Source: Ignavibacteria bacterium GWC2_36_12
GTDB lineage: Bacteria; Bacteroidota; Ignavibacteria; Ignavibacteriales; Ignavibacteriaceae
Assembly (NCBI GenBank): GCA_001802795.1
Contig: MGZZ01000156.1
Location: forward strand, 30,492 to 77,057
DNA length: 46,566 nt
Direction: 5' to 3'
In this document: positions 2,480-46,566 of the stretch, one piece after another
Position numbering within the stretch: the first letter of the stretch is position 1
Layout: the number at the start of each line of letters is the position of its first letter
Notes under the pieces: generated by a model
The model's input: the letters and a program-made list of their open reading frames with translations, nothing else
Databases searched by the model: none
What the model was told of the DNA's origin: nothing
Program-made: the position numbers and the translations under genes

Positions 2480-2494
2480 ATCCTCCTCATCAAT

Positions 2495-12654: not shown

Positions 12655-12663
12655 CTTTTCAGT

Positions 12664-23222: not shown

Positions 23223-24341
23223 TTATTTGAGACCGTCAAACCAACCTAAATCCCATTCGTCTTTCCATTCAATAACTAATTTCCCGTCATTAAATTGAAT
23301 TGGCAGCCAGATATATCTTCCATCAATTGGATTTTGCGGTTTCCATCTATCAGCCATAAAAATATAAGCATTTTCCTTCCCCGGAACTTTTAATATAAAT
23401 GTACTTTGGGAATGAAATGTAAGAGCACTATCATCACCAACACAGGGATTGCCAAGTTCCTTCCACGGTCCCCAAATGGAAGGGGCTGAAGCAGATCTTG
23501 CCGCATTCGGATCCCAGCCCGTTGTTCCCGATCCAATGTAATAATATTTATCATCGTGTTTAAATACCGCAGGAGCTTCCATATTCCTATTAATAAATAC
23601 TCGCATATATTTTCCACCGGGCTTTAGATAATCGGAAGTTAATTGCGAAATATGCGTAGTTCGATTTTCTTCTGAAGTATATATGTGATAAGCTTCCCCA
23701 TCGCTATCAACATATAAGGTCATGTCACGTGACATCTGCCCGCCTTCGAAGTCTCTTTCAAGATAATTATCCTTGGCAGCAATTTTGTCTTCCTCTGTTA
23801 CATTAATAGGCCATTCCCCGGCATCCGGACGAAAAGAATATAAATATTTATATGGACCGGCAGGGGAATCACTAACTGCCACACATGTACGTGCTGATGC
23901 GTATCCTTGACTTTTTAACTCCAGATGAAACCACATGATAAATTTCCCTGTCATTTTATTATAAATAACCTTAGGTCTTTCAAGCACGCATCCTTTTGCT
24001 ATATCGTTGGTTGAATCATCCGAGATAGGCAGTGCAATACCCATGTCTTCCCAATTGAATAAATCACTAGATGAATAAACATGAACACCGACCATTGCTT
24101 TGTTTCCTGCTGGTCCTGCAATTTTATGCTCTCCAAACCAATAATAAACGCTATCATAATAAAGTATACCGCCTCCATGTGCATTAATTGGTTTTCCGTT
24201 AGTATCCAGCCAGATCTGACCCGGATAAAAACTCTTGTAATTAGTTTGTTGAGGGGCTGCTGAACAAGTAAAAATAAATAGAACAATTATCATAGCAAAG
24301 ATTCCAGAAGGGAAAATCTTGTATATATTTATTTTTTGCAT
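23223..24341 (-). CDS. GH43 protein of the exo-beta-1,3-galactanase type (GH43_24-like)
   Basis: The 372-residue protein begins with a hydrophobic export segment ending CSAAPQQ (a lipoprotein cysteine is possible). The five-bladed propeller starts IWLDTNGKPINAHGGGILYY and YYWFGEHK, followed by VYSSSDLFNWEDMG, ERPKVIYN (E121) and YTSEENRTTHI (E224/E225), then RDMTLYVDSDGEAY. The INAHGGG start and YWFGEHK strand are typical of the GH43 subfamilies that include exo-beta-1,3-galactanases such as Ct1,3Gal43A, which trim the beta-1,3-galactan backbone of type II arabinogalactan. The subfamily is therefore probable but not proven. There is no carbohydrate-binding module or sorting tail. The gene follows GH35 by 54 bp. 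Confidence 0.8.
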   Translation of the reverse strand: MQKINIYKIFPSGIFAMIIVLFIFTCSAAPQQTNYKSFYPGQIWLDTNGKPINAHGGGILYYDSVYYWFGEHKIAGPAGNKAMVGVHVYSSSDLFNWEDMGIALPISDDSTNDIAKGCVLERPKVIYNKMTGKFIMWFHLELKSQGYASARTCVAVSDSPAGPYKYLYSFRPDAGEWPINVTEEDKIAAKDNYLERDFEGGQMSRDMTLYVDSDGEAYHIYTSEENRTTHISQLTSDYLKPGGKYMRVFINRNMEAPAVFKHDDKYYYIGSGTTGWDPNAARSASAPSIWGPWKELGNPCVGDDSALTFHSQSTFILKVPGKENAYIFMADRWKPQNPIDGRYIWLPIQFNDGKLVIEWKDEWDLGWFDGLK

Positions 24342-24358
24342 AATGCTCTCTTTTAATA

Positions 24359-24378
24359 AATATTTATATATAAATATT
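24359..24378. promoter_or_regulatory. Perfect AT palindrome upstream of the GH43 gene
   Basis: AATATTTATATATAAATATT reads the same on both strands and lies 17 bp upstream of the GH43 start codon, in the 54-bp gap after the GH35 stop. It could be an operator or part of a promoter, but such sequence also arises by chance in AT-rich gaps. Confidence 0.25.
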
Positions 24379-24395
24379 AAACCATTGCATATCTA

Positions 24396-24416
24396 TTATA
24401 GCCTTGTTAAAAAATC
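24396..24416. repeat. 21-bp direct repeat, copy 2 (3' end of the GH35 gene)
   Basis: Copy 2 supplies the last codons and the stop of GH35 (DFLTRL, stop). It differs from copy 1 at 23142-23162 at two of 21 positions. Confidence 0.6.
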
Positions 24417-26792
24417 ATTTCCAATAAAAACCTGATAATTTTTTATTTTACCCTTAATATTATTACCTGCAATCGGAACATAACTGAATCCTGTAATCAA
24501 TTCTTCTTTCCCCAAATCGATTACTATATAGTGCGGGTAATCGGGCTTTTTGTTACTCCATTCGGAATGCCAATAGTTGAACGTTTGTCCGTCTATTGCA
24601 TTTTCAGCGCTTCCGTTTTCTTTTATTAATTCTTCGCTGCTAACGTAAGCAATTGTCCAGTTCTGATGGCTAATCGGTTTGCCGTCTATGTTAAGAATAT
24701 CAAGTTCAGCTATTCCTGCTGAATGCTTTTTATCCTGTGAGCTGAGCGCTTCAAAACAAAAATAGCGACCTTTGGCTGGTGCCGACAAATTAACCGTTTG
24801 CATCTTGTCTCCAGTCGTAAATTGTCCGATGATATTGGGCTCCAGGTTTTCAATATCAAATTTTACATCGGGGCGTTTGGAAAGTGTAAAGTCTTTTCCG
24901 GGTTGGAGTTCATTTAAGATCGGTTTGTCTAATCCTTGCAAAATGGGTTCTTCGGGTCCGACTATATCTAACACAAAAACTTTATTGCTTCCCTCATTTA
25001 ACCATGGTCCCGGTATATACATTGTTTGAGTTGGACCAATATTCCAATAACGCCCAAGGCAATGCCCGTTTACCCATACAACACCTTTTCCCCATTTGCT
25101 TAAATCAAGAAAAACATCGCCGACTTTTTCAACTGCTATTTCTCCCCGCCATATTCCGGGTGCAGATGGTATCGCTACTGTTTTTTCAAACTTCAGGTTG
25201 TTCAACATATTATCATCGTATGATAGATTGAATACTTTCCATTCTTTAACCGGAATAAAATTTTTGTCTTTATCTAAAAACCGGATAGGTGTAATTAATC
25301 CCTTTCTATCGTGGACTTCGGGTCCGAAGTTAATTCTTCCCATCGCGTGAACGAATATATCAATAGTAGTTTCCTTATCTCTTTCCGGAATTGTTATTTT
25401 GAAATTTTGTTTGCGTCTATCCATTACACCAAGTTTTTCACCATCTGCAAAAACCCAGGCAAAATCATGAACGGCATCTACTTTAAATATACATTCTTCT
25501 CCGGCCGGTAAAACAGTTCTATAAAGAATGCTGCCTCTTACCTGATCGTAATATTCCATTGTTTTAGGATCATCAGTAACAACCGGATCAGGAAGGTTTT
25601 CAAAAATCGATGCAAACTCGGTTAGCCGTATTGAGGGAAAAGTAGTTGTCGGATTTGGTACAGGCGGTTCGGGCAAAGCAGGTTCTCCCGGTATCAGGTA
25701 TTTGGAAATTAAATTTCTGGTTGCAAAAAATTTCTCTGTTGTCCAGCCTGCTTCACTAACAGGCGCTCCGTAATCGTAACTGGAAACATCAGGTTTAAAA
25801 GGTCTATCGGCACCGCACCAAAATCCGAAGGTAGTGCCCCCATGCGCCATATAAACACTGTATGAAGCCCCTGTTTTCAACATGTATTCCATAACTTTTA
25901 AATATTGATCGGTCTCTCCAAAAGTATGTGGGTTTCCCCAAGTATCGAACCAGCCCGAATAAAACTCTCCACACATCAGCGGACCTTCGGGAAGTATTTC
26001 ACGTAAAGCTTCAAATGACTCTTTAGGGTTTGATCCAAAATTTACAACTGGGAATAGATCATCCCTGTATCCTTTCTTTAGATGATACGGCGGGTTACAC
26101 GCAAAAAGAGGGACATCAAAACCCGCATCAATGATTGCGCTTCTCATTAATCCCATATATTCAGCATCATCGGCAAAGAATCCGTATTCATTTTCGACCT
26201 GCACCATTATTATTGGACCGCCATTTGTAATTTGTAATGGTCCTAAAACATGACCTATCTCCTTTAAATAATTTCGCGCGGCATTTATATATAACGGATC
26301 TTTTGTACGCAGCTTTATGCTGTCGTTTTTTAATAGCCACCAGGGTAAACCACCCATTTCCCATTCGGCGCAAACATACGGACCGGGACGCAGGATAACC
26401 CACAATCCTTCTTCCTGCGCTATTTTGCAGAATTCAACAACATCGGCTTCGCCATCCCACTTGAATACACCGGGAGTTCGTTCGTGGAAATTCCAAAATA
26501 AATAAGCGCATATTGTATTCATACCTAACGCTTTCATCATTTGAATGCGGTGATGCCAGTACTCTTTAGGTATACGGGCAAAATGTAATTCGCCGCATCG
26601 TATTTGAAATGGTTTTCCGTCAAGCATGAAATGTTCTTTTCCAATTTCAAAAGTATGCTTGGTTGCCTGCGTTTGAGAAAATGTTGTTCTTGCCGTTACC
26701 GATAATATACCTATCGAAATAAATGATATTATGAGCGACAATTTTAGTTTTCCAATTTCGTTTTGAATTAAGTTTAACACAATGCGTAACAT
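24396..26792 (-). CDS. Secreted GH35 beta-galactosidase, C-terminal domain cut short
   Basis: The 798-residue protein starts with a long basic N-terminus before a hydrophobic core (LSLIISFISIGILSVTARTTFSQ). The GH35 barrel has FQIRCGELHFARIPKEYW, GMNTICAYLFWNFHE and VILRPGPYVCAEWEMGGLP. The acid/base is in VQVENEYGFF (E202) and the nucleophile in PLMCGEFYSGWFD (E276). Jelly-roll modules follow, and the last region resembles an F5/8-type C domain (HYIVIDLGKEELITGFSYVP, IKNYQVFIGND). It stops at DFLTRL, where such domains usually run several dozen residues further, so the end is probably truncated. The enzyme removes terminal beta-galactose. The first codons, ATGTTACGCA, match the arm end of the inverted repeat at 33008. 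Confidence 0.92.
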   Translation of the reverse strand: MLRIVLNLIQNEIGKLKLSLIISFISIGILSVTARTTFSQTQATKHTFEIGKEHFMLDGKPFQIRCGELHFARIPKEYWHHRIQMMKALGMNTICAYLFWNFHERTPGVFKWDGEADVVEFCKIAQEEGLWVILRPGPYVCAEWEMGGLPWWLLKNDSIKLRTKDPLYINAARNYLKEIGHVLGPLQITNGGPIIMVQVENEYGFFADDAEYMGLMRSAIIDAGFDVPLFACNPPYHLKKGYRDDLFPVVNFGSNPKESFEALREILPEGPLMCGEFYSGWFDTWGNPHTFGETDQYLKVMEYMLKTGASYSVYMAHGGTTFGFWCGADRPFKPDVSSYDYGAPVSEAGWTTEKFFATRNLISKYLIPGEPALPEPPVPNPTTTFPSIRLTEFASIFENLPDPVVTDDPKTMEYYDQVRGSILYRTVLPAGEECIFKVDAVHDFAWVFADGEKLGVMDRRKQNFKITIPERDKETTIDIFVHAMGRINFGPEVHDRKGLITPIRFLDKDKNFIPVKEWKVFNLSYDDNMLNNLKFEKTVAIPSAPGIWRGEIAVEKVGDVFLDLSKWGKGVVWVNGHCLGRYWNIGPTQTMYIPGPWLNEGSNKVFVLDIVGPEEPILQGLDKPILNELQPGKDFTLSKRPDVKFDIENLEPNIIGQFTTGDKMQTVNLSAPAKGRYFCFEALSSQDKKHSAGIAELDILNIDGKPISHQNWTIAYVSSEELIKENGSAENAIDGQTFNYWHSEWSNKKPDYPHYIVIDLGKEELITGFSYVPIAGNNIKGKIKNYQVFIGNDFLTRL

Positions 26793-26894
26793 TATTTATT
26801 TCCTTTTTTAAATGATATTATTTTACTTCATCGATATTATGTATTTGTTAATGCTATTGTTATTGTTCCTTCTGCTTTTATGCATGACATTCTT

Positions 26895-27647
26895 TTATTC
26901 AAGAAGCCAGCCTCCGTCCACAATAAGGTTATGGCCTGTTGTAGCCCTACTGGAATCAGATAATAGAAAGAGTACATGATTTGCAATATCATCGGGCTGA
27001 ATTTTTATTTTTAACGATTGCATCGAGAATAAATTCTCGAGATGTTTCTTATTCTTTTCTTCATCTTTGGTATCAAAGTATTCTCTGGTTTGACGTTCTG
27101 TAAAAACCCAGCCGGGTGAAATACAATTAATACGGATTCCTTCTTTACCTAATTCTCTTGCAAGTCCGGTTGTTAATCCGATAATCCCGGCCTTGGTTGA
27201 TGAATAAATACTCCTTCCCGAAACGCCCAATCTATAATTAATAGAAGATATATTAACTATACTTTTTCCATCTCCCTTTTTTAACATTTCCAATGAAGAC
27301 CGAATGCAAAAATAGTAACCTCTTAGATTGAGATTTACAATTTGATTCCAATGTTTTTCATCTCCTTCTTCAAGAGAAATTTTAGGATCTATACCTGCAA
27401 CATTCACAAGGTAATCAACGGATTCTACCAGCGCCTTAATTGAGTTAAATGTCTTTTCTATTTCTTCTGTTAATTGCAGGTCGCAACAATAGTGGTTATA
27501 ATTTTCATGATCTATTGTCGCCGCATTACAATCAATTCCAAATACTTGTGCGTGTTGATTCAGCAATCCAATTGATGTTGCTTTTCCAATTCCATGAGAT
27601 GCCCCGGTAACAATCGCAGCTTTTCCATTTATATCATTAAAAACCAT
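26895..27647 (-). CDS. Short-chain dehydrogenase/reductase, probable sugar or alcohol oxidoreductase
   Basis: The 250-residue protein has the classical SDR marks: NAD(P)-binding TGASHGIG (14-21), NVAG (82-85), the catalytic serine in VNISSINY (S134/S135) and the YSSTK motif with Y148 and K152. It also has the C-terminal INCISPGWVFTERQT and GHNLIVDGGW. No signal peptide is present, so it works in the cytoplasm. It lies between the GH35 and LacZ-type genes, so oxidation or reduction of a released sugar such as galactose, arabinose, rhamnose or glucuronate is plausible, but the substrate is not visible in the sequence. A remnant of a GH43-like gene lies upstream, between it and lacZ. Confidence 0.9.
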   Translation of the reverse strand: MVFNDINGKAAIVTGASHGIGKATSIGLLNQHAQVFGIDCNAATIDHENYNHYCCDLQLTEEIEKTFNSIKALVESVDYLVNVAGIDPKISLEEGDEKHWNQIVNLNLRGYYFCIRSSLEMLKKGDGKSIVNISSINYRLGVSGRSIYSSTKAGIIGLTTGLARELGKEGIRINCISPGWVFTERQTREYFDTKDEEKNKKHLENLFSMQSLKIKIQPDDIANHVLFLLSDSSRATTGHNLIVDGGWLLE

Positions 27648-27724
27648 TTCGATTTCACCATAAGTTTTTGAAATAATGTCCTTACATATAAATAAAAAAG
27701 TATTATTAAACTTGACATTATACT

Positions 27725-27823
27725 TTAGTTATTATCAAAAAAATTTAGATTCCACTCATCTCTCCAACGGAGTACAATTTTACCTTCATCATTAAATTGA
27801 CCGCTCCGCAAGACTATTTTTTC
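27725..27823 (-). pseudogene. 3' remnant of a second GH43-like gene
   Basis: The minus strand between the SDR and the LacZ-type gene encodes a 32-residue piece ending in a stop at 27725. It contains QFNDEGKIVLRWRDEWNL followed by NFFDNN. The last residues of the GH43 protein at 23223 read QFNDGKLVIEWKDEWDL followed by GWFDGLK, so this is clearly the same protein end. An in-frame stop precedes it (27824-27826), and only about 70 bp separate it from the next gene, so the rest of the gene is gone. Confidence 0.85.
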
Positions 27824-27893
27824 CTATACTGATTTTCCTTTTTCTTTATAAAATTCAATGTTGATTAGAAACACAAAAAATTATTCTGGAAAA

Positions 27894-31112
<3,219 letters not shown>

Positions 31113-31124
31113 TTATATGTTTGA

Positions 31125-32957
31125 TTACTTAAGGACAATCATTTTTTTTGTTGAAATAAAATTACCTGCAGATAATTGATAGAAATAAATTCCGCTCGGC
31201 ATACCATTCGCGTTAAATTCAACCTTATAATCGCCCGGGAGTTTTTCTTCATTTACAAGTGTTGTAACCTCACATCCGAGTGTATCGTATACCTTTAACG
31301 TTGCAAAGACAGCTCGCCGGGTTGTCTTTACATTTGGAATTGTAAATAAAATTGTTGTGCTTGGGTTAAACGGGTTCGGGTAATTTTGATTGAGCTGAAA
31401 TGATTTAGGGATTTCTTCTCTCTTATTTACTCCTGTTATGGCGCTTCCATCAAGTTTACATACCAAAGTCACTACAGATTTTGAAGGTATTTTATAAATG
31501 CTGTCAACAGAAACAGGGTCGTATGCTTTTAAATTATCTTCTAATTTATTGCTGGTGATATAAGGAGTAAGGTATTTAATTTCCTGTGACGAATCCAGGC
31601 CTGAGAAGCTGAATTCTAATTCCCTCTCATTATTACCAACATTAACAAATACCAAAATTACTTTTGTACCGGCTGAATCAAGATATGCAGAAGCCATTAA
31701 TCCGTATTTATCATTTGCCCCTGAACAGCCGATTCTTTGAGAACCAGGACGAATGTACCTGCTGTAATTACCTAATGCCCACAAAGTTTTAGAAGGAATA
31801 ATACTTTGAGATGTACCTGTAACCCCATAATTGGTAAATATTAAACCATCTTTATAATCATACTTTGAAACTGCAAGCCACCATTGCCATGCACTTGCAT
31901 TGGTAATAGCCAAATCAAAATGAATTATCCGGGCAATATCCAAGGCAGTTGTCATTGTAAGATCGCGACCGCTTCCACCCTGACCACTCGTGCCTTCTAA
32001 AATGCAATACTCTGTAGCCCAGTATTTATAACCTAATGATAAATACTGCTCCATATAACTATATAGTGATTGTCTCGCCTGCACTACTTCCGAGCTTAGC
32101 AAATCCGACCAGTAAGAGTGTCCAGCAAAAATTTTAGCGGCTTTTGTTGTAATACTTGCATCATTAAAAAGGGAGTTAAGATAATTGCCATAAGTTTTTC
32201 CGTATTTGCTGCTTATTGAGGATGCTGTTGTATACCAGCCAGGCAGTTCACCGCTTTCGGGGATAATTATTTTTGTAGAAACATTTTGATTATTCAATTC
32301 AGCATAAAGTGAATCAACCATCTTTTTTATATCATCGTTACTTGCTCTGTTTCCTTCCTGCCCGCTGCCGTTCCATTCCCATTGAGGTTCATTAACCGGA
32401 CTTACATAATCAAAGTTTACTCCCACGCTGTCCCGGAAATGTTTTAAAATATCAACAAGGTATTTTGAGAATTGATTATAATAACCATCTTTCAAATTTG
32501 TTGAACCGAGACCATCTGTGCAGTATGTATGACCATTAAGCGTCATACTTTTAGGAGGGCTATTCACAAAAGCTATAAACTGATTAACTCCTCTTTCTTT
32601 AGCTGCCTTAAGAAACCATTGACCGCCTTCATTACGTGTCCAATCATAATTGCCGGGTGAAACTTCAAATGTTGTTACAGTTCTCCACGAATCGGAAATT
32701 GACACATCTATACCGCCGCCCAAATTGAATCTCCATGCAGATAAGCCGATTCCTTTTGTTGGTGAAAATAAGAGATCAGCTATTGAATCTTTATTAGCGA
32801 TACTCCAATTTCCAATTTTATGCGCCCACCAGCAGTCTGATGCAGAAAAATTATCTATGGTTTGATATTTCTGATTCAAATCAACATCGATAGAAATTGT
32901 CTGGGCAACGATTTCAGCCCCCATAATAAAAAGCATTGAAAATATTTTTAATTTCAT
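31125..32957 (-). CDS. Secreted GH30 endo-beta-1,6-galactanase-like enzyme with T9SS sorting tail
   Basis: The 610-residue protein has a short signal peptide and a GH30 barrel beginning YQTIDNFSASDCWWAHKIG, then SAWRFNLGGG and FVNSPPKSMTLNGHT. The acid/base lies in YVSPVNEPQWEW (E190) and the nucleophile in KYWATEYCILEG (E316). The DCWWA and NSPPxxMTxNG patterns fit the bacterial and fungal endo-beta-1,6-galactanases of GH30 (subfamily 5), which cut the beta-1,6-galactan side chains of arabinogalactan; the subfamily is inference. A beta-sandwich follows at about 410-500, then a T9SS tail (LNQNYPNPFNPSTT, LKVYDTLGCEV, MPSGIYFYQL). A palindrome at 31305-31329 encodes part of that tail. It acts outside the cell. 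Confidence 0.88.
   Translation of the reverse strand: MKLKIFSMLFIMGAEIVAQTISIDVDLNQKYQTIDNFSASDCWWAHKIGNWSIANKDSIADLLFSPTKGIGLSAWRFNLGGGIDVSISDSWRTVTTFEVSPGNYDWTRNEGGQWFLKAAKERGVNQFIAFVNSPPKSMTLNGHTYCTDGLGSTNLKDGYYNQFSKYLVDILKHFRDSVGVNFDYVSPVNEPQWEWNGSGQEGNRASNDDIKKMVDSLYAELNNQNVSTKIIIPESGELPGWYTTASSISSKYGKTYGNYLNSLFNDASITTKAAKIFAGHSYWSDLLSSEVVQARQSLYSYMEQYLSLGYKYWATEYCILEGTSGQGGSGRDLTMTTALDIARIIHFDLAITNASAWQWWLAVSKYDYKDGLIFTNYGVTGTSQSIIPSKTLWALGNYSRYIRPGSQRIGCSGANDKYGLMASAYLDSAGTKVILVFVNVGNNERELEFSFSGLDSSQEIKYLTPYITSNKLEDNLKAYDPVSVDSIYKIPSKSVVTLVCKLDGSAITGVNKREEIPKSFQLNQNYPNPFNPSTTILFTIPNVKTTRRAVFATLKVYDTLGCEVTTLVNEEKLPGDYKVEFNANGMPSGIYFYQLSAGNFISTKKMIVLK
31305..31329. repeat. Palindrome in frame inside the GH30 sorting tail
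   Basis: AAAGACA (31305-31311) pairs with TGTCTTT (31323-31329) with additional G-T-tolerant pairing inside. It lies at codons about 543-551, encoding KTTRRAVFA just before TLKVYD. Sister tails without the element are five residues shorter here. Confidence 0.7.
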
Positions 32958-33007
32958 TTTATATATATCCTATAACTGTGAAAGCTCATCATAAAAAATA
33001 TTAACTC

Positions 33008-33105
33008 ATGTTACGCAATAACTGGAATGATGGAGTAATGGAATTCGCCTAAAAAGTACTCCATTATTCCAAAATTCCATTATTCCAGAGAGTTGTGCGT
33101 AACAT
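33008..33105. repeat. 98-bp imperfect inverted repeat element
   Basis: ATGTTACGCAATAA (33008-33021) and TTGTGCGTAACAT (33093-33105) are inverted ends. Inside are TGGAATGATGGAGTAATGG on one side and CCATTATTCC blocks on the other. It fills most of the 147-bp gap between the GH30 and propeller-GH105 genes and touches the stop codon of the latter. On the minus strand it could also stop transcription. It has no coding capacity, so it may be a non-autonomous dispersed element. Confidence 0.7.
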
Positions 33106-35492
33106 CAGTAATTGCTATTTAATAGAATTATCATCTCTCTTCCGCAAAGCAGAAACGCTCCGGTTGCATAAACCTGCCATTGATATTCAAAGAAAGGATA
33201 TGGATCGCCGGCAACCTGCTGAACATAACCTAATCGTCCCCATTCATTAACATTTGCACAAAGTGCCGACCATGCCTTTTTTACCGCTGGCTCAAAAACT
33301 TCTTTATCAAGAAGTCCGTTATTGATTCCCCATGCAAGAGCAAAAGTAAAAAAGGAGCTGCCGCTTGATTCACCCAATGGCAGTTCATCCGGATCATACA
33401 AACTTGCAGTCCACAGCCCATGTTCTCTTTGTAAGGACAATAACTTCTGAGCCATTTCTTTAAACTGGTTTTCAAATTTAATTCGAGAGGGATGAGAATG
33501 AGGGATTATATTTAACATTCTTGCTAACCCGGCAGCTACCCATCCGTTACCTCGGCACCAAAATATTTTCTTGCCGTTTTCAGATCTTCTATCAAAAAAT
33601 CTATCATCTCTAAAAAAGAGACTATCTTCTTTTGAGTAAAGATAATCCGAAGTTATCCACCAATGATCAACTGCATATTTTAAATAGCTGGTATCATCAG
33701 TTGCCTGGTACATTCTTGCAAAAGAGGGAGGAGCCATAAAAAGTGCGTCGCACCATGTCCACCATTCAAATCTATAATTATTTGCATCATAAGCAGGATC
33801 GGATTTTACAGTTCTTACTTTGTGTATATCCATAACCCATTTGGCAGTCTCAATCATCTCGGGATCATTTTTTATTTCGTAAAGCCAGGCATAAACATCT
33901 GCTATTGTAAGTCTATCCGCATTAAAAATGTGATTCAATAATCCCCACTCATGCTCTTGTCCGATATTAATCATTTCATTTAAATATCTGTCTTCTTTTA
34001 CTGTTTCATAAAGAGCTTCCAAGCCAATGTAAAAAGCTCCGTAATGCCAATCGAGGCGTGATTCTCTTGTTACGGGATTTGCCAATTGCCAATCCGCAGT
34101 TTGATGCATTATGTTTTTTATATCTTCTACATTAAGCGGGTTGGTAATTCGGGGAGAAAGAATATTCATTTTAATAGAAGCAAAATAATCGGTGTAGTGG
34201 ATGTACTTTGTATTCTGCATCCAAAGAACTTGCAAAGGATTTCCTTCTTTTGCATTGCTTACTGCAAAAGGTCTAACGTTATCCTTGCTCGAACCTTCTG
34301 TTATTGCTTCAGCTTCCCAATTTGTTCCGCCCGCGTTAATCCATTTCTCAATCTCAAAAACAGAATCTCTTTTTACCGATAGATAAACTTCGTTTGTATT
34401 TTCATGATCTATAAAAATTCCGCCGGAATAGTTTGGTTCTCTTTCAAATGTACCGGCTTCTGTTTTGGGAAACCATTTCCCCGAATTTATTAAATCACTT
34501 GTAATCCATCTTTCCCCGTTCCATTTTGTATAAGAATAAACATGAGTTGTATCATTGGGAAACTTTGCATAAACCAACACGGGATTTTCATTTTCATCAA
34601 GTGCTACATCCCATATCCATGCTTTCTGTTTTGTTATTGCTGCATCGTAAACAACGGAAGCTTCACCTGGTGCTATTGGTTTATCTCCCAGCGATCCGAT
34701 TTTTGCTTCTTCAACATTATATAATGCACCGTTTTTATAGTACATATAATAGATGCTGTTTTCATTTTCATTACGCGGGTGTCCGTCGGTAAAAGCAAAA
34801 ACGATTTTATCTTTACCGTTCGAAGCAATTTTCATGTATGGTCTGCGTAATTGATAAATCCTTTCGGGCAAAATAAAAATTCTTCCTTTGCTCCACGTCT
34901 CTCCCATGTCGTCCGAATAAGAGTAATTCGGTTTATAATCCATACCTCTCCAGAAAAGATATATCCTGTTGTTTTCATTTGATAACATTACAGGACACGC
35001 ATAAGTATAAGTACTTTGAAATCCTTCATATTTTTCTTTGTCATTAAGCAGCAATTCTTTTTTCTCCCAGGAGAAAATATCTTCCGGATTTTTCATTGTA
35101 ATAAGAATGATAGGATTTGCAGTGCTGTGTTTTACAAAAAACACCATCAATTTTCCTCCCGGTGAAAAAAGCAGAGCAGGAGCAACGTGATCGTCCTTTT
35201 CAAAATTATCTTCCAGTACAACTGTTTTTATTTCTTTGCTATCATGATCATAATAGCCCACAATCACATCGCCATGGCTGTCGACCCAGGTTGCATAAGT
35301 ACGTTTATGTTCACCTTCATAATAAATGGCACGCGGATCAGAAAACCAGCACCAGGCGCCGTCGAAAGTAAAGGAACAGTAACTTTCGGAATTATTACCG
35401 GAATCTTTATTTAAAGATACTTTCAACAAATTCTGTGAAATTAAAAGTGATGAAAAACCAAAAAATATTATTAGAAAAAATTTCTTACCCAT
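33105..35492 (-). CDS. Two-domain protein: BNR/PL-type beta-propeller fused to GH105 unsaturated-uronyl hydrolase
   Basis: The ATG at 35492 is preferred over 35528 because GCAGGGTG sits just before it and a signal peptide follows (MGKKFFLIIFFGFSSLLIS). Residues about 38-440 are a propeller: AWCWFSDPRAIYYEG, DDHVAPALLFSPGGKLMVFFVKH, TYTYACPVML, YQLRRPYMKIAS. Residues about 450-795 are a GH105 (YteR-like) alpha/alpha barrel: LDWHYGAFYIGLEALYE, WWTWCDALFMAPPSFARMY (catalytic-type D582), FWCRGNGWVAAGLARML. GH105 enzymes remove the 4,5-unsaturated uronic acid left by a polysaccharide lyase. A propeller of this kind is the fold of several lyase families (PL24, PL25, PL27), so lyase plus clean-up enzyme in one chain is plausible. 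The lyase role is inference. Confidence 0.85.
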   Translation of the reverse strand: MGKKFFLIIFFGFSSLLISQNLLKVSLNKDSGNNSESYCSFTFDGAWCWFSDPRAIYYEGEHKRTYATWVDSHGDVIVGYYDHDSKEIKTVVLEDNFEKDDHVAPALLFSPGGKLMVFFVKHSTANPIILITMKNPEDIFSWEKKELLLNDKEKYEGFQSTYTYACPVMLSNENNRIYLFWRGMDYKPNYSYSDDMGETWSKGRIFILPERIYQLRRPYMKIASNGKDKIVFAFTDGHPRNENENSIYYMYYKNGALYNVEEAKIGSLGDKPIAPGEASVVYDAAITKQKAWIWDVALDENENPVLVYAKFPNDTTHVYSYTKWNGERWITSDLINSGKWFPKTEAGTFEREPNYSGGIFIDHENTNEVYLSVKRDSVFEIEKWINAGGTNWEAEAITEGSSKDNVRPFAVSNAKEGNPLQVLWMQNTKYIHYTDYFASIKMNILSPRITNPLNVEDIKNIMHQTADWQLANPVTRESRLDWHYGAFYIGLEALYETVKEDRYLNEMINIGQEHEWGLLNHIFNADRLTIADVYAWLYEIKNDPEMIETAKWVMDIHKVRTVKSDPAYDANNYRFEWWTWCDALFMAPPSFARMYQATDDTSYLKYAVDHWWITSDYLYSKEDSLFFRDDRFFDRRSENGKKIFWCRGNGWVAAGLARMLNIIPHSHPSRIKFENQFKEMAQKLLSLQREHGLWTASLYDPDELPLGESSGSSFFTFALAWGINNGLLDKEVFEPAVKKAWSALCANVNEWGRLGYVQQVAGDPYPFFEYQWQVYATGAFLLCGREMIILLNSNY

Positions 35493-35537
35493 TTTCACCC
35501 TGCTTGTTTTTTTATTTATTAATAACATGGCTAATAC

Positions 35538-38006
35538 TTATTGAGCATCTATTGATAATTTGCCGGTACTCAATTCTTTGGAAGTTACTTCGATTTGTAT
35601 AGCTCCTTTTTGTCCGTTGGACTGAATAAATACTCGTGCTTTACCCTGATATACCTGGTGATTGTCATCCTTGTAAGGTTCAATGTTCTTATTATCGCCG
35701 TTACCAAAGCCGGCATTAAATCCTGCACCGGTAATATTAATTGTAACCTGGTTATCTGCATAAGGGACAATATTACCATCACGATCCATCACCAAAACTT
35801 TAACGCTGGCTATATCTTTCCCATCAGCATAAATTGAAGACCTATCGCTTTCCAATATTATTCTATCAGGCTTTCCTGTTGTTTTTAAAATATTTTCCGC
35901 TGCTTTTTCTCCATTTTTATAAGCTATCGCTTTTAATACTCCGGGTTCAAAAGGTACCTTCCAATTCAATACGGCATTATTAGAATCGGTTAATTCCTGA
36001 GAGCCTAACAACCTGTCATTCAAATACAAGTTTACTTTATCGCAATTTGTAAAAGCCACAACGGAAATTTCTTTTCCGGCGAACTTATCCCAATTCCAGC
36101 TATCAACATGACGAAATCGGTCATTTGTTTCTTCAGGTGAAACACAGGAAATATGAACCATTGGATTTTCTGTCCATAAACTTTGTCTATAATAAAACTC
36201 CGGCTTTTTGAAATCACTTAAATCAACTAAACCTGATAAGTTGCTGCGGTTGGGAAATCTGCCGGCTTCCCCCAAATAATCAATTCCCGTCCATAAAAAC
36301 TGGCCAGGAATAAATTTATTATTTTTTACTGCCAGCCATTCTTGATATGAATCTCCGTTTTCACTGCCTATTATTTTTCTATCAGGAAATTGCTTATGAT
36401 CTTCTTCATAATATTGTTCCTGATAATTATAGCCCACCACATCAAGAACCTCTGCATAACCAATTTTATTTGACAACGAAATATTTGCCAACGCAGCGGT
36501 TACCGGGCGCGTAGAATCTATCTCTTTTACATAATCATAAAGGTTGCTCGCTATTTCAGTAAGCTGATACGCCTGGGGTCTCCACTGTTCGAAATTATCG
36601 CGCGAAGGGTCGGTATAGGGATCATTCGGATAATCTATTTCATTGCCGATACTCCAAAGTATTATTGACGGATGGTTACGATCTCTTCTTACCATATCCT
36701 GAATATCTTGTTTTGCCCATTCCTCAAAATAATCGCTGTAACCGTGCTGAGAATAATATTTATTAAGTCCTGCAGCGCCTTCATCCTGTCCAACGTTCCA
36801 GCCTTTAATCCATTTCTTCTTACCAATTTCCCATTCATCAAAGGCTTCATCCATTACAAGAAATCCCATTCTATCGCACAGATCCAATAATTCAGGAGCG
36901 GGAGGATTATGACTAGTCCTTATTGCATTAGCTCCCATTTCTTTCATTAGAATTAGTCTTCGTTCCCATTCTCTTTCGGGAACTGCCGAACCCAATGCTC
37001 CGGCATCATTATGAAGACAAACTCCTTTTATTTTAACCGATTCTCCATTTAAAAAGAATCCGTTATCAGCATCAAATTGAATAGTACGAATTCCAAATGC
37101 GGTTGAGTCTCTGTCAACTAATTGTTTTTCGATATAAACTTCACTTATCACGGAATACATATACGGACGTTCCAAAGACCATAGCACTGGTTGTTCAACA
37201 TTAATTAACTGATCAAAGTCATATTTAGTATTCGATTGAAAAAAAATATTAGAAGATGTTTGTCCAACTATCTTACCGGCAGAATCAACAACTACGCTTT
37301 TCAAAGTTACTGACTGTTTTTCCTGAGAATCATTTTCAATCGTTGTTATAATTCTTACATCGGCAGAATTTTTATTAACAGCCGGAGTTGTAATATATGT
37401 TCCCCAATGAGCTACATGAATTTTATTCGTTACATATAACCATACATGTCCGTAAATACCTCTGCCGGTATACCAGCGTGAATCAGCTACCTGTGAATTA
37501 TCAACACGGACGGCTATAATGTTTTTTTCATTTACGAAATGAAGGTATGGAGTAAGGTCGTAACAGAAACTAATAAAACCGTACGGGCGTTTTCCAAGAT
37601 AATGACTGTTTATCCATACTTCACTATTTTCATAAACTCCATCGAACTGGATTTCCACATGTTTGTTGTTATCGGTTTCCGGCAAAGTGAATTCTTTTCT
37701 GTACCATCCTATGCCTCCCGGTAAATACCCTGTACCGCTTGCATTTAGAGAATCAAATTTTCCTTCGATACTCCAGTCGTGTGGAACATTTAAGAGTCTC
37801 CAACCTGCCTTGCCGTCAGGCAGGTCGTCATCATTAAATTCAGGATTGTTCGCTCCAAATATGACTCCCAAATGAAACCTCCAATTGAAATCCATTGAAA
37901 GACACCTGCTGTTTTCTTTAAGCTCCTGTCCGCTAAGATGCAATTGAATAAAGAAGCATAGAAAAATGAAGAACGAACACTTAATTGATTTTAATAAGGC
38001 ATTCAT
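35538..38006 (-). CDS. Secreted GH2 beta-galactosidase-like hydrolase, paralogue of the 16457-19027 gene
   Basis: The 822-residue protein has a signal peptide ending near LHLSGQE. The order of domains matches the paralogue: LNVPHDWSIEGKF, WYRKEFTLPE, WYTGRGIYGHVWLY, then the barrel with IILWSIGNEIDYP (acid/base E456) and RKIIGSENGDSY (nucleophile E549), then Ig-like C-terminal domains. GH2 enzymes of this group act on terminal beta-galactose or beta-glucuronate. An in-frame palindrome gives LPDGKAG at residues 62-68, where the paralogue reads DDGNWR without the extra residues. The propeller-GH105 gene follows closely, and a decayed aldose 1-epimerase lies on the other side. Confidence 0.9.
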   Translation of the reverse strand: MNALLKSIKCSFFIFLCFFIQLHLSGQELKENSRCLSMDFNWRFHLGVIFGANNPEFNDDDLPDGKAGWRLLNVPHDWSIEGKFDSLNASGTGYLPGGIGWYRKEFTLPETDNNKHVEIQFDGVYENSEVWINSHYLGKRPYGFISFCYDLTPYLHFVNEKNIIAVRVDNSQVADSRWYTGRGIYGHVWLYVTNKIHVAHWGTYITTPAVNKNSADVRIITTIENDSQEKQSVTLKSVVVDSAGKIVGQTSSNIFFQSNTKYDFDQLINVEQPVLWSLERPYMYSVISEVYIEKQLVDRDSTAFGIRTIQFDADNGFFLNGESVKIKGVCLHNDAGALGSAVPEREWERRLILMKEMGANAIRTSHNPPAPELLDLCDRMGFLVMDEAFDEWEIGKKKWIKGWNVGQDEGAAGLNKYYSQHGYSDYFEEWAKQDIQDMVRRDRNHPSIILWSIGNEIDYPNDPYTDPSRDNFEQWRPQAYQLTEIASNLYDYVKEIDSTRPVTAALANISLSNKIGYAEVLDVVGYNYQEQYYEEDHKQFPDRKIIGSENGDSYQEWLAVKNNKFIPGQFLWTGIDYLGEAGRFPNRSNLSGLVDLSDFKKPEFYYRQSLWTENPMVHISCVSPEETNDRFRHVDSWNWDKFAGKEISVVAFTNCDKVNLYLNDRLLGSQELTDSNNAVLNWKVPFEPGVLKAIAYKNGEKAAENILKTTGKPDRIILESDRSSIYADGKDIASVKVLVMDRDGNIVPYADNQVTINITGAGFNAGFGNGDNKNIEPYKDDNHQVYQGKARVFIQSNGQKGAIQIEVTSKELSTGKLSIDAQ
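37803..37825. repeat. 23-bp palindrome in frame inside the second GH2 gene
   Basis: ACCTGCCT (37803-37810) pairs with AGGCAGGT (37818-37825) around the loop TGCCGTC. On the minus strand it encodes DLPDGKAGW. The same ACCTGCC/GGCAGGT arms occur in the palindrome at 17098, which gives LPVRQAG in the other GH2 gene, so both insertions derive from one element family. Confidence 0.85.
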
Positions 38007-38048
38007 AACTTATTCCGTCACAAAAAATAATTTTGATTTTTGCTAATT

Positions 38049-38660
38049 CTATAAACCGTTTTTGCTTAAATAAATTCCGTAACTGGAAACGTATTCTTTC
38101 CCGGGAGCTAATTGAATTAAACCTTCGCCGTTATTAAAAGAATTTATATTGGATGTCATCGGTTCGACTGCAATGGATCTTCTTCCAGGAGGAGTATAGA
38201 CCACAAGATATTCATACTTATTATTCCCGGTTTCCTGCCAGATATTTAAATCAATATTATTAGCCGGTGCAATTAATTTTGTTACAGCTTTTCCATTATT
38301 ACTGCAATTTTAAAACAAGAATCAAACTGAGAGTTTCCAATCTTTTTAGGAATTCTGAAATTATTATAAAATTCTTTTTCACCAGTCGGAATGTTTCGTA
38401 AATCCAGCTTTACTATTTCAGGTACATTTAATTTTAATTCCAGCTCATCCACTTTGATTCCAAGATCAAAGTAATGATGCCATCCGTCGCTAAGGGGAAC
38501 TGTATTTTTCGAGTTATTAATAATCCTGGTTGTACATATTAATCCCTCCAAAGCAGTTATTATATAGGTTATCTCAATTGAATAGCTAAACGGATAACCT
38601 TCATTCTCATTTTCATAAAGATATACAAGCGCTCAATAGCGCCTTTTCATCATTAACAAT
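38049..38660 (-). pseudogene. Frameshifted aldose 1-epimerase (galM-like)
   Basis: In sequence order the minus strand encodes KIVNDEKALLSACISL, then YENENEGYPFSYSIEITY (next frame), then GWHHYFDLGIKVDELELKL and FDSCFKIAVI, then (next frame again) NNGKAVTKLIAPANN, RRSIAVEPMTSNINSFNNGEG and a tail ending LSKNGL with a stop at 38049. NEGYPFSYxxExxY, DGWHHYF and AVEPMTSxxNxFNxGEGL are family marks of aldose 1-epimerase-like proteins, which interconvert alpha and beta sugar anomers. At least two frameshifts break the gene (near 38615 and near 38300), and the N-terminus is missing. The AT-rich 38661-38778 holds nothing recognisable. Sequencing error is possible but two breaks favour true decay. Confidence 0.8.
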
Positions 38661-38778
38661 TTTAAAGCTCCGCTACCTCACTCACAGTAATTCTTTATAA
38701 ACTATTGCATCCTTGAATGAGCCCAAATTCTATTTGTTTATTCTTTTACTCCTATTAAATCATAATTTATTCATCTAA

Positions 38779-40128
38779 TTAATTATTTAATTCTATCTCC
38801 AATATTGATACTAGCTGCGGTGTAATGCTTTCTAATGTTTCTGAGTCCCCTTGTCCAACATTTTGAATAAATAAATTTAATTTCCCGGAAGTTCTCCAAA
38901 GTTCAGTATCATACGTCGGTTCCCACATTCCAACCGAGAAGTTTGTTAGGTTTTTAGTCTGCCAAAAATTGTTTTTAATATTATTACAAACCGACATTGA
39001 AACTTTATTTCCCGTTTCTATACTTCTATACACCAAGTGTAAAACATTTTTCTTATCACATAAAATTAGCGGACGTGAAATCGGGATGTGTTTTGTACCG
39101 CCTCCGCTTAAACTGAATGGTGTTTTTAACTCAGAAATTTGCTTGGTCTGCCAATCTTTTCCATCATTATAAATTATATGATATTGAGGAATTTTTTCCC
39201 CTTTGGGGATCCAATAATTGGTAATGTATGGATAGCCATTTATATCCGTGCTCATAGATGTTTGATTAATTAATCCGCTGCCTTGAGGAATCTTTGCAGC
39301 GTATTCAGCACTCTCCATTGTAATTGGAAGGTTATATTTTTCACCATTTGATTTTTGCCAGCTTACACCGTCGTCAATAGATTTAGCATAACAGATATCA
39401 TGATTTGTTTCTACATCCCATGTTTCGCGCCATACCCATGAAAGATGAATAACTCCATTTACATCAACTGTCAATTGCCAATATGCATTTCTCTTTCCTT
39501 CGCCATCAATTAAATTATTATGCAGATTACTCCATTTTTTTTCTTTGGTGCTGTAATAATTCATTACCATGTTACCATTGCCGGATTCACCGTCTCTATA
39601 GACAAATATCAGATTCCCATCTTTAAGTTTGTGAAACTCGGGGTATGAAACACTTTGTTCATATTCTCCCAGCATTTGCAGTTCACCTGTTAATTCTAAG
39701 CTCTCCGGTTGTGTGCTTTTACAATAATGTAATTTAGTATTATGTTCGTTCCAGACCATGTGAATATATCCATCTCCATCAACCATAATACTTATACTAT
39801 TATGTGCATCTTTTACATTACCGGTATAACGGGTTCTTCTTAATTCCCAATCAGATGAATTTAGTTTTCTTCTGGCAAGCACTACATGTCCGATGGAATC
39901 ATAAAAAGCAGCATACTGATGTTGATTAAAACTGACAACAGAATTACGGCGAAATATTACAGTGTTGATTGAATTCGCTGCCCATCCTTTTTCAATATTA
40001 ATTATTTTTACTTCAGAACCTGGAGAACAACAACTCACTGTTAAAAGAATCAGTAATATTATATTTACTTTTTTGGGCAAAACTTTTATATACAAATAAG
40101 ATCCCATAAACTGAAGTTGTTTTCCCAT
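38779..40128 (-). CDS. Exported BNR-type (BNR_4-like) beta-propeller, possible rhamnosidase or lyase
   Basis: The 449-residue protein has a hydrophobic N-terminal segment ending LLTVSCCSPG, where a lipoprotein cysteine (C33 or C34) is possible although the lipobox is weak. The rest is a propeller with repeating blades: VVSFNQHQYAAFYDSIGHV, KDAHNSISIMVDGDGYIHM (H109), VWNEHN (H129), YPEFHKLKDGNLIFVYRDG, YWQLTVDVNGVIHLSWVWRE. These fit the BNR_4 family, which includes enzymes on L-rhamnose-alpha-1,4-glucuronate caps (GH145) and polysaccharide lyases (PL24, PL25). In this locus a role on the rhamnose caps of arabinogalactan would make sense, but the exact family is not decidable by eye. Confidence 0.75.
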   Translation of the reverse strand: MGKQLQFMGSYLYIKVLPKKVNIILLILLTVSCCSPGSEVKIINIEKGWAANSINTVIFRRNSVVSFNQHQYAAFYDSIGHVVLARRKLNSSDWELRRTRYTGNVKDAHNSISIMVDGDGYIHMVWNEHNTKLHYCKSTQPESLELTGELQMLGEYEQSVSYPEFHKLKDGNLIFVYRDGESGNGNMVMNYYSTKEKKWSNLHNNLIDGEGKRNAYWQLTVDVNGVIHLSWVWRETWDVETNHDICYAKSIDDGVSWQKSNGEKYNLPITMESAEYAAKIPQGSGLINQTSMSTDINGYPYITNYWIPKGEKIPQYHIIYNDGKDWQTKQISELKTPFSLSGGGTKHIPISRPLILCDKKNVLHLVYRSIETGNKVSMSVCNNIKNNFWQTKNLTNFSVGMWEPTYDTELWRTSGKLNLFIQNVGQGDSETLESITPQLVSILEIELNN

Positions 40129-40241
40129 TATTAGATTAAAGCTGATTTACACCTGAACAAATTTTCCAATTTACCTTTCCTTTCAAAGGATCAGTTTCTA
40201 CATCATATGTATTATTTATTTAAAAAAGCTTTTGGGGAATT

Positions 40242-42248
40242 TTATTTTTCAACATGAAAGAAAATTCCGTCTTTCACTTCTTCCTTTTCACCGCCGGGTG
40301 CTTTCATCTTTAAATTCAAGCCGCTGCCACCGCCTCGCTGAAAGAAAGAAATATTAATATTATGGTAACCTTCACTAAGAAATAAGCTGCCTGATTTTTC
40401 AACCATTGCGTGCAAACCATCGTTTAAAACAATCTCTTTATTATCAACACTCAGCTTTGAACCATCATCCGAAGTGAGATAAAATTCATAAAGCCCCTCT
40501 TTATCAATTTTGATATATCCCTCATAAGTCAGCCCGAAATTGTTCGCGGGCGTACCCTCAGGATAGATAACATTATTAATACTGCCGGAACGTTTTGGTT
40601 CTATTTCATAAAAATCCGGAAGCCTGTTAAGTTCTCCTTCATAAAAATTAAAAGAGAGACCGGGTTTCAGCTTAGAAAAGTCAACTTCCGCAGATTTTAA
40701 ATTCAAATCACCGGTAAGTTCAACAGCTATTACCGAATGTTTTGGAACATTAATTTCTATTTTATTTTCTGAAGTTTTAAAATCATCAAAAGGTTTTATG
40801 CCTACATTGTCCGGCTCATCAAATGTATTATGCGCATTTAATTTATCGGAAGTTAATATCTGACCGGAAGCCGATCGAACAGTGAATGAATTAAAACTGC
40901 AGACTAGTTTTTCATTCTCCTCCGCATTAAGATTGCATGCTGTTATATGTATCTTGCCATCTTTATCAAGAGAGGAAGAAATATGGAGTGCCGGAATTTT
41001 TCCCTGATCTGTATCTATGCTGTCGGTTTCTAAAGAGATAGGAATCATTACAGCATCCTGGTGAACTTTATACATATCAAACACATGGTATGTTGGAGTT
41101 AAAACCATCTTTTCATCTTTAGTGAGAATAAGAGACTGCAGTACATTAACAGTCTGAGCAATTGCAGCCATTTTTACCCTGTCGCAATGATTGTTAAAAA
41201 TATTCAAATTGATACCGGCTACTAATGCATCACGCAAAGTGTTTTGTTGATATAGAAATCCGGGATTAGTGCCCGGTTCAACTGCATGCCACATTCCCCA
41301 TTCATCAACAACAAGAGCAACACTCTTCCCCGGATCATACTTATTCATAATAGCGGAATGACGGGTAACAAGTTCTTCCATCACCAAGGTATTATGCATT
41401 GTATTGTACCAGCTCTTTTCGGTAACATCGGTTGCATGTTCACCTGTATTCCAGGTATAGTAATGAAGTGCCAAACCCCATATTGAATTTCCGAGTTCAT
41501 GCATTATCACATCCGTCCAGTTATAGTCGTTACCATTCGGACCAACGGCAATTTTATTAAGAGTTGTATTGCCAAAATCTTTCATGAATCGACCATATCT
41601 TCTGGCTAGGTCAGAATAATATTGTGGTTTCATATCTCCGCCGCATCCCCAAGACTCATTCCCAAGTCCCCAATAAGGCACATTCCATGGTTTTTCTCTA
41701 CCGTTTTTCTTTCTCAATTCTGTCATCGGACTAACATTGTCCGAGTTAACATATTCAACCCATTGAGATAATTCGCGAATAGTTCTGCTACCCAAATTTC
41801 CGCTGAAATATGGCGCACTACCAATTTGTTCACATAGATCAAGAAATTCGTGAGTGCCGAAACTATTATCTTCAGTTATCCCGCCCCAGTTAGTATTTAT
41901 CATGGTTGGTCGTTGCGAGCGCGGACCAATACCATCCATCCAATGATATTCATCGGCAAAGCATCCGCCGGGCCAGCGCAACACCGGAACTTTAATTCTT
42001 TTCATTGCTTCTACAACATCGCTTCTAATTCCCCTTACATTAGGTATAGAAGAATTTTCACCTACCCAAAACCCGCCGTATATACAACGTCCAAGATGTT
42101 CGGAGAAATGACCGTAAATATTCCTGCTGATTTTGTAGTGTGCCTTGTCGAGATCGAGTATTGCATTATTTACAGTTTGTTGAGCAGATAGAGTACTAAA
42201 TAATATTAAGAGCAAAAGCAGAGGCGGATGAATAAATTTTTGTTTCAT
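40242..42248 (-). CDS. Secreted GH51 alpha-L-arabinofuranosidase with C-terminal PA14 domain
   Basis: The 668-residue protein has a signal peptide (ending LSAQQT). The GH51 part begins [20 protein letters not shown] and has [13 protein letters not shown]. The acid/base glutamate is in [13 protein letters not shown] (E198) and the nucleophile in [10 protein letters not shown] (E316). After the beta-sandwich, residues about 535-660 form a PA14 domain ([34 protein letters not shown]), a sugar-binding module. The enzyme removes terminal alpha-L-arabinofuranose from arabinan and arabinogalactan, so it would debranch the polymer for the galactanases nearby. There is no sorting tail, so it is probably periplasmic. 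Confidence 0.93.
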
Positions 42249-45981: not shown

Positions 45982-46566
45982 TTATAGGAAATTTACTCTA
46001 AATCCCAATTGAGCGGTTAAACCGTATGATTCATCTGTACGCCGAAAATTATTTCCTCTCACCAGATAGGTATCTTTCTCTCCATTCAGATTATTCAGAT
46101 TCATGAACATTTCAATGTTATACCAGGGTAATTTCTGTCTTGCAACAACATCCCAACGCAGGTATTCTGCCTTATCAGTTCTTAATCCATTCCAGAAATT
46201 TGTACTATTGAAAATAGCTGATTGGTAAATCGCGGAAACTAAAACTGAAAAACCTTTATAGTCATATCCCAAAGAAACATTTACAATATCATCCGGTTGG
46301 TTTATTAAACGATCAGTATATGTTGTATCAGTATAAGTGGTTTGGAATAGTGGAGGTCCGGAATTACCAACAACAGTTAGAGGATATTTTGCTTCCGAAA
46401 ATACATGTGTATAATTCACATTCAGAACCAGTCCACTTAATACGCCCGGTAAGTACCAGAAATGTGTCTGCCAATCGGATTCAATACCCCATAATTCAAC
46501 TTGATTAGGATTATTATAGTATGTTCTAATCGAATATCCTCTGACATTCAAATTTGGATATCGTGG
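45982..46566 (-). CDS. TonB-dependent receptor, C-terminal part (N-terminus outside window)
   Basis: The frame is open to the window edge (PRYPNLNVRGYSIRTYYN) and ends at a stop at 45982, so the 194 residues are the C-terminus of a larger protein. The sequence is strand-rich with alternating aromatics: ELWGIESDWQTHFWYLP, SGLVLNVNYTHVFSEAKYP, VNVSLGYDYKGFSVLVSAIY. It ends ESYGLTAQLGFRVNFL, with a final aromatic/leucine pattern like the last strand of an outer-membrane barrel, as in TonB-dependent receptors. Such receptors import siderophores, vitamins or oligosaccharides. Position at the head of the locus suggests a glycan, but no SusD-like partner is seen downstream. Confidence 0.75.
   Translation of the reverse strand, partial: PRYPNLNVRGYSIRTYYNNPNQVELWGIESDWQTHFWYLPGVLSGLVLNVNYTHVFSEAKYPLTVVGNSGPPLFQTTYTDTTYTDRLINQPDDIVNVSLGYDYKGFSVLVSAIYQSAIFNSTNFWNGLRTDKAEYLRWDVVARQKLPWYNIEMFMNLNNLNGEKDTYLVRGNNFRRTDESYGLTAQLGFRVNFL

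Follow-up and report, generated by a model that had tools for sequence, protein, structure and literature searches.

A stretch of 46,566 nucleotides from Ignavibacteria bacterium GWC2_36_12 (contig MGZZ01000156.1, positions 30,492 to 77,057; the whole stretch is called the window here) carries a gene cluster that is predicted to form a polysaccharide-utilisation locus (PUL) for type II arabinogalactan or arabinogalactan-protein glycans, together with a beta-1,4-galactan arm represented by a GH53 protein (probability about 0.7). The prediction leans on a GH43_24 enzyme and a PL42 propeller, whose targets, beta-1,3-galactan and rhamnose-glucuronate (Rha-GlcA) ends respectively, both belong to arabinogalactan proteins. 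The window sits on an 86.9-kb contig of a draft genome of 3.83 Mb (194 contigs, 94% complete).

A sequence-only reading of positions 23,223-42,248 had already named GH43, GH30, GH35, a LacZ-type GH2, another GH2, GH51, a propeller joined to GH105 and a stand-alone propeller, all on one strand, as a probable arabinogalactan set from an Ignavibacteria-like organism. All these enzymes are present, on the minus strand throughout, with Pfam E-values (1e-13 to 1e-111) that exclude chance, and the placement was also right, since the source organism and Melioribacter roseus belong to one order (Ignavibacteriales in NCBI), in different families. The genes of that span are real, but the whole cluster is larger, covering about 41 kb from position 13,477 to past the right end of the window. 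Similarly, the set as first described, including the removal of rhamnose caps, stood, but it lacked the GH53 gene and the lyase route as well as the genes for galactose catabolism and for uptake. Below 23,223 the cluster continues with GH53, a GH5-like gene and a GH2 gene, and then galactokinase and a sodium/solute symporter; above 42,248, on the same contig, follow a CotH-domain gene, a gene called SURF here, a TonB-dependent transporter (TBDT) gene, a LacZ-type GH2 gene with a laminin-G insert, GalT and LacI. The genes within the window, several of which encode tails of the type IX secretion system (T9SS), are as follows.

45982-46566, minus strand: TBDT, C-terminal part (N-terminal part at L002:293-2389, same contig); 68% identity to the M. 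roseus TBDT; TIGR01782 type, judged by homologues.
44132-45859, minus strand: SURF, T9SS-tailed protein; only Por_Secre_tail in Pfam, right-handed beta-helix model; partner of the upstream TBDT.
42311-43930, minus strand: CotH-domain protein with T9SS tail; 49% identity to its M. roseus counterpart.
40242-42248, minus strand: GH51 alpha-L-arabinofuranosidase with C-terminal PA14; 78% identity in M. roseus; GNES and VDEW motifs.
38779-40128, minus strand: PL42 (formerly GH145) stand-alone BNR_4 propeller, a predicted L-Rha-alpha-1,4-GlcA lyase by homology and residues.
35538-38006, minus strand: GH2, GalA/GalB-like beta-galactosidase, under equivalog cut-offs; 64% in M. roseus.
33105-35528, minus strand: fusion of an N-terminal BNR_4 lyase-like propeller and a C-terminal GH105 (GH105/88); D113, H114, H134, Y176, R194; D594.
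31125-32957, minus strand: GH30 (GH30_4-like) with T9SS tail; catalytic pair E190/E316.
27894-31091, minus strand: LacZ-type GH2 beta-galactosidase; NCBIfam Bga2A over cut-off.
26895-27647, minus strand: short-chain dehydrogenase/reductase (SDR) oxidoreductase; nearest model xylose 1-dehydrogenase, far under cut-off.
24396-26792, minus strand: GH35 beta-galactosidase with F5/8C domain; 69% in M. roseus.
23223-24341, minus strand: GH43_24, exo-beta-1,3-galactanase type; 398 bits against 6eug.
21618-22952, minus strand: GH53, endo-beta-1,4-galactanase type, with T9SS tail; family match.
19024-21621, minus strand: GH5-like/clan GH-A protein of 865 amino acids, without confident family; 4-bp overlap with both neighbours (GH53, GH2).
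16457-19027, minus strand: GH2, GalB-like; 62% in M. roseus.
15047-16324, minus strand: galactokinase; family match.
13477-15009, minus strand: SSF sodium/solute (sugar) symporter; PRK10484 above cut-off.

The GH43 protein clearly falls, by sequence, in GH43_24, with exo-beta-1,3-galactanases as its nearest characterised relatives. Indeed, it scored 398 bits against 6eug, 255 against 6euf, 191 against 3vsf and 174 against 7bys ("Galactan 1,3-beta-galactosidase"), and 24 bits against the best xylosidase-type match, in agreement with the type first proposed for it. The endo-beta-1,6-galactanase look ascribed to the GH30 protein did not hold up: in a comparison of these two structures, rather than of a full subfamily tree, it matched 3clw with 272 bits and 24td with 53. 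A recent study places 3clw in GH30_4 (2026 paper, PMC13431644), and 24td (Sa16Gal30A) is the first structure of a GH30_5 endo-beta-1,6-galactanase; an assignment to GH30_5 thus finds no support. The protein may nevertheless act on galactan, because the cleft of GH30_4 enzymes resembles that of GH30_5 on the glycone side (same paper). The suggestion that endo-enzymes leave the cell through the T9SS agrees with the C-terminal Por_Secre_tail domains, from which export is predicted, found above the Pfam cut-off in GH30, GH53 and SURF, above the NCBIfam cut-off in the CotH protein, and also present in a GH16 protein of M. roseus.

The stand-alone propeller is, by sequence, a member of PL42, the family that supersedes the former GH145. 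It matched BT3686 over the full propeller length with 530 bits (Bacteroides proteins, 498-530 bits) and FoRham1 with 112 bits, and reached 627 bits with the NCBIfam BT3686 model, under the equivalog cut-off of 700. BT3686 combines a posterior hydrolase site (His48) with an anterior lyase site (His90, Tyr143, Arg333), whereas PL42 members that lack His48 act as lyases and pass their unsaturated product to a GH105 encoded nearby (PMC8377490, PMC8406133); since such members exist, His48 was not used to decide membership. In the window protein the lyase residues are kept (H109, H129, Y162 and R352, corresponding to H90, H110, Y143 and R333 of BT3686) and the His48 position is occupied by F67 (Ser in the M. 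roseus protein), so that it should, as predicted from these residues, act as a lyase only, like BACCELL_00856, rather than as a rhamnosidase, cutting Rha caps by beta-elimination. The GH105 of the locus would therefore be the natural next step. PL42 is rare in the class: any match was found in 9 of 294 genomes and a clear match in only four, one of which (G221) shows the order TBDT, SURF, PL42, GH88/105 protein, GH2.

Most of the locus is conserved in M. roseus (strain P3M-2), where one stretch of about 39 kb (1,110,649-1,149,963) holds GH35, GH43_24, GH2, LacZ, CotH, the fusion, another GH2, PL42, GH51, GH30, SURF, TBDT and the LacZ with laminin-G, at 48-78% identity. This stretch includes in addition a GH16 gene with a T9SS tail adjoining the fusion, and lacks GH53 and the GH5-like gene. 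The locus is thus not confined to the source organism, although literature searches (open-licence papers) found none described for arabinogalactan in Ignavibacteria, M. roseus included. Inside the M. roseus locus (L018:17312-19999) lies also a subtilase with a beta-helix region and a T9SS tail that could attack the arabinogalactan-protein core.

These data bear on a different target, namely pectic side chains (type I arabinogalactan or beta-1,4-galactan, and arabinan), with the lyase and GH105 acting on rhamnogalacturonan ends. The T9SS-tailed GH53, the GH2 and GH35 beta-galactosidases and GH51 would all suit such a target, and genome G005 has another locus (L048) with TBDT, SURF, GH53, GH2 and galactose genes. 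Nevertheless, we consider it improbable as the main function, given the targets of GH43_24 and PL42, the retention of both genes in M. roseus next to the absence of GH53 and the GH5-like gene, and the fact that pectate lyase, rhamnogalacturonan lyase and GH28 were not found in the window.

The 807-residue protein encoded at 33,105-35,528 consists of a BNR_4 propeller followed by GH105. Its GH105 part reached 248 bits with PF07470 and 231 bits with its closest structure, the ulvan enzyme 4ce7, and W590, W592 and D594 are invariant in seven fusions. With the fused propeller alone, phmmer gave no matches in the PDB; a profile built from eight fusion-type propellers picked up the PL25 ulvan lyase with 31 bits, and H114, H134, Y176 and R194, invariant across the eight propellers, align with the PL25 catalytic set (the complex structure 5uas has Asn in place of His at the aligned position). 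Judged by its sequence, this is a second lyase-like propeller, in which the four catalytic residues of PL25 are all present; it was not filed as PL25, since a score of 31 bits falls short of family-level similarity. It forms a distinct clade, with 17-21% identity to PL42, and probably represents an unclassified lyase family. The predicted structure of the fusion matches PL25, BT3686 and GH105 folds, although its modest confidence (predicted local distance difference test, pLDDT, 62.5) makes it supportive only. Beta-elimination on a uronate followed by the GH105 step is a well-supported prediction from sequence and context, the leaving group being Rha, water or methanol.

One alternative to a second Rha-releasing lyase is that the fused propeller acts on terminal GlcA or 4-O-methyl-GlcA by elimination of water or methanol, with GH105 clearing the product and Rha-capped ends being left to PL42. 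The presence of PL42 in the same locus and the separate clade of the fused propeller speak for it, and there is a precedent in P29_PDnc, an oligosaccharide dehydratase that feeds GH105 in ulvan degradation (PMC8511951). However, the residues probed in P29_PDnc were of other types (D, E, R, K, Y) and its kinship to the propeller is not established, while no evidence here separates the leaving groups; elimination of water or methanol is thus regarded as doubtful.

Full-length relatives of the fusion are rare, comprising the M. roseus protein (76%), five Bacteroidales metagenome-assembled genomes (MAGs; 55-60%) and a few more in the phylum sample. Their neighbours differ: two 2-keto-3-deoxy-6-phosphogluconate-type aldolases, a major facilitator superfamily transporter and an FGGY kinase in one MAG (L021), KduI, SDR and LacI in another locus (L022), and GH31, GH127, GH51 and LacZ in a third (L024). 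Genome G502, from another class, has a stand-alone propeller with 53% identity to the fused one, in a locus that also encodes GalT, GalK, SSF, aldose epimerase, LacZ, GH2 (57%), GH30 (36%), SusD and, adjacent, a TonB receptor whose plug is SusC-like in sequence; the set of propeller, GH2, GH30, LacZ, SSF, GalK and GalT thus recurs there with a SusC-like receptor and SusD. Among other relatives, a Bacteroidota contig (G394:C37, L124/L125) encodes two fusions of propeller and GH105 as well as a separate GH105 and a sulfatase, which suggests a sulfated uronate-containing substrate; plasmid pPP8 of Persicobacter psychrovividus (L112) has the two halves in separate genes, side by side, in the neighbourhood of fucosidases, GH43, SusD and uronate catabolism; and BNR_4 propellers with 27-29% identity to the fused one occur on haloarchaeal megaplasmids.

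The likeness to ulvan enzymes raises the question whether the target is a Rha-GlcA glycan that is algal or sulfated (similar to ulvan, or agar). Besides the GH105 closest to 4ce7 and the propeller fold closest to PL25, two distant fusion relatives adjoin sulfatases and M. roseus hydrolyses agarose. Such a target is nonetheless highly improbable, as no sulfatase was found among the scanned window genes and ulvan is a poor fit for GH43_24, GH51, GH53 and galactose catabolism.

The uptake system differs from what would be expected in a Bacteroides PUL. Apart from its T9SS tail, SURF has no Pfam family, a generic Beta_helix model being touched by 2 of 16 relatives. In all 16 loci fetched through SURF within the class, a TonB transporter gene lies immediately upstream on the same strand. 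The converse search, starting from transporters in the source genome, G005 and M. roseus, yielded another 17 transporters of full length, every one followed by a SURF relative (E-values from 1e-148 to 2e-26, with a model without the T9SS tail). Outside the class, a transporter was found upstream of 16 of 20 SURF matches. Five SURF-paired homologues reached 310-365 bits with TIGR01782 (curated cut-off 310; the window's own copy, split by N runs, was left unscored), while homologues of the window TBDT gave at most 81 bits with the SusC model TIGR04056, against a cut-off of 368 and the 732 bits of the true SusC of M. roseus. A SusC-like label for the SURF-paired receptors was consequently dropped. 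The sole true SusC/SusD pair of M. roseus is its starch operon (PMC3534657). The SusD model PF14322 had no match in the source genome (PF07980 was not searched genome-wide), and SURF adjoins the TBDT in SusD's place.

Structure prediction gave a right-handed beta-helix for SURF (pLDDT 72.5); the folds nearest to it, at low TM-score, are those of PL6 and pectate lyases. The fold likeness to a PL6 alginate lyase (Foldseek E-value 5.7e-7, TMt 0.32) would suit a secreted PL6/pectate-lyase-like enzyme that merely neighbours the transporter. This is unlikely, because SURF follows every full-length TIGR01782-like TBDT tested, amid very different enzymes, as a single-specificity enzyme would not. The pairing suggests instead that SURF substitutes for SusD, a role in capture or as a lid being the likelier one since it is the invariable partner in loci whose other enzymes differ. 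By extension, there is a somewhat better than even chance that a large part of the Bacteroidota, comprising Ignavibacteria and one or more other classes, uses SusD-free glycan capture, in which a TIGR01782 TBDT works with a T9SS-exported beta-helix lid or binder and the enzyme sets are interchangeable with those of SusC/SusD loci. No description of a T9SS protein replacing SusD was found in the literature (open-licence papers). Four other TBDT-SURF loci (L050, L051, L058, L059) encode an ~800-residue GH94-looking protein, some with a GH18-looking protein (judged by eye from the N-termini), which suggests loci for chitin oligosaccharides.

From gene content, residues, synteny and pairing, all of which rest on sequence, we infer localisation, substrate, the function of SURF and the leaving group of the fused propeller. 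T9SS-exported endo-type enzymes (GH30 and GH53, with GH16 in M. roseus) would open the glycan at the surface, and the fragments would be imported by the TIGR01782-type transporter with the beta-helix protein as its capture partner. In the periplasm, at the level of enzyme families, GH51 may take off arabinose, PL42 would cut Rha caps from GlcA by beta-elimination, GH105 would then clear the unsaturated glucuronate, and GH43_24, GH35 and the GH2 enzymes would degrade the galactan to galactose. The fused propeller-GH105 probably carries out elimination and unsaturated-uronate removal within one polypeptide. Galactose would enter the Leloir pathway via the SSF symporter, GalK and GalT. KduI was found in both genomes, that of the source organism and that of M. 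roseus.

Several observations weigh against an arabinogalactan function. The GH30 protein is nearest GH30_4 rather than GH30_5 and the window locus has no GH16, so that the main surface endo-enzyme is uncertain. The presence of GH53 suits type I (beta-1,4) galactan, and in the source genome RhaA is only a weak match. Relatives of the fused propeller adjoin sulfatases or fucosidases elsewhere, so its substrate is not fixed. Localisation was read from signal and T9SS sequences only. Finally, agarose and lichenan hydrolysis have been assigned to Mros0970 and Mros0976 (M. roseus genome paper), and by gene number alone these two may lie in this locus.

Among the remaining features, N runs at L002:1-81 and L002:328-411 (same contig) split the window's TonB transporter and a further one lies in GalT; the breaks in both genes are thus assembly gaps, and frameshift was rejected as their cause. 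For the 865-residue GH5-like protein, attempts at family assignment gave weak mannanase-like matches only, and its long C-terminal part is without any family match. The GH16 of the M. roseus locus has laminarinases as its best PDB relatives (about 80 bits), and its placement as an endo-beta-1,3-galactanase was not achieved; a whole-GH16 search of the source genome was swamped by T9SS tails, with one GH16-domain match listed (33%, contig C33), off the window's contig. Direct repeats correspond mainly to paralogous GH2 genes and T9SS tails, and Rfam and tRNA scans gave no matches. Downstream of the symporter, at 10051-13233, an ECF (extracytoplasmic function) sigma factor gene is directly followed by a Ser/Thr kinase gene with TPR (tetratricopeptide) repeats, which may or may not regulate the locus. 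Two large proteins are encoded at 2-5149, one with SBBP propeller repeats and the other a PKD-domain protein with a T9SS tail.

These results would extend arabinogalactan-protein degradation to Ignavibacteria, with M. roseus as a cultured organism that carries the locus. The enzyme list alone is of a known type; what is new is the lyase-GH105 fusion and the T9SS-exported beta-helix partner of a TIGR01782 transporter. The former is predicted to make and remove unsaturated uronate ends in one protein, and might serve as a tool in gum analysis. The latter points to a systematic alternative to SusC/SusD; should it work as proposed, loci for glycan uptake may have gone unnoticed in these bacteria, since SusC/SusD is the usual mark by which they are identified.

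Compared with the arabinogalactan-protein PULs of Bacteroides (B. thetaiotaomicron, B. plebeius PUL5), the locus has in common GH43_24, PL42 and GH105 for Rha-GlcA caps, an arabinofuranosidase and beta-galactosidases. It differs from them in having the TIGR01782 transporter and T9SS beta-helix protein instead of SusC/SusD, T9SS tails on endo-type enzymes, a GH105 fused to a second propeller, and GH53 and galactose genes. With the L-rhamnose-alpha-1,4-glucuronate lyases of PL42 (FoRham1, BACCELL_00856, BACPLE_00338, BT3686) the stand-alone propeller shares the lyase residues and, with the Bacteroides proteins, a full-length match, but the hydrolase His48 of BT3686 is replaced by Phe here and by Ser in M. 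roseus. The fused propeller resembles the PL25 ulvan lyase PLSV_3936 (5uam/5uas) in fold and in the four catalytic positions, and differs from it in the GH105 fusion, the gene neighbourhood and a profile similarity of a mere 31 bits. As in SusC/SusD pairs, a TonB-dependent transporter gene stands beside the gene of a surface partner in carbohydrate loci; here, however, the transporter is of the TIGR01782 type and, instead of a lipoprotein with the SusD fold, the partner is a beta-helix protein with a T9SS tail. The carbohydrate-utilisation (CUT)-type TIGR01782 TonB transporters of Xanthomonas and Caulobacter belong to the same transporter family; the present type is set apart by the CarboxypepD_reg domain at its N-terminus and by having a partner of its own that is exported through the T9SS.

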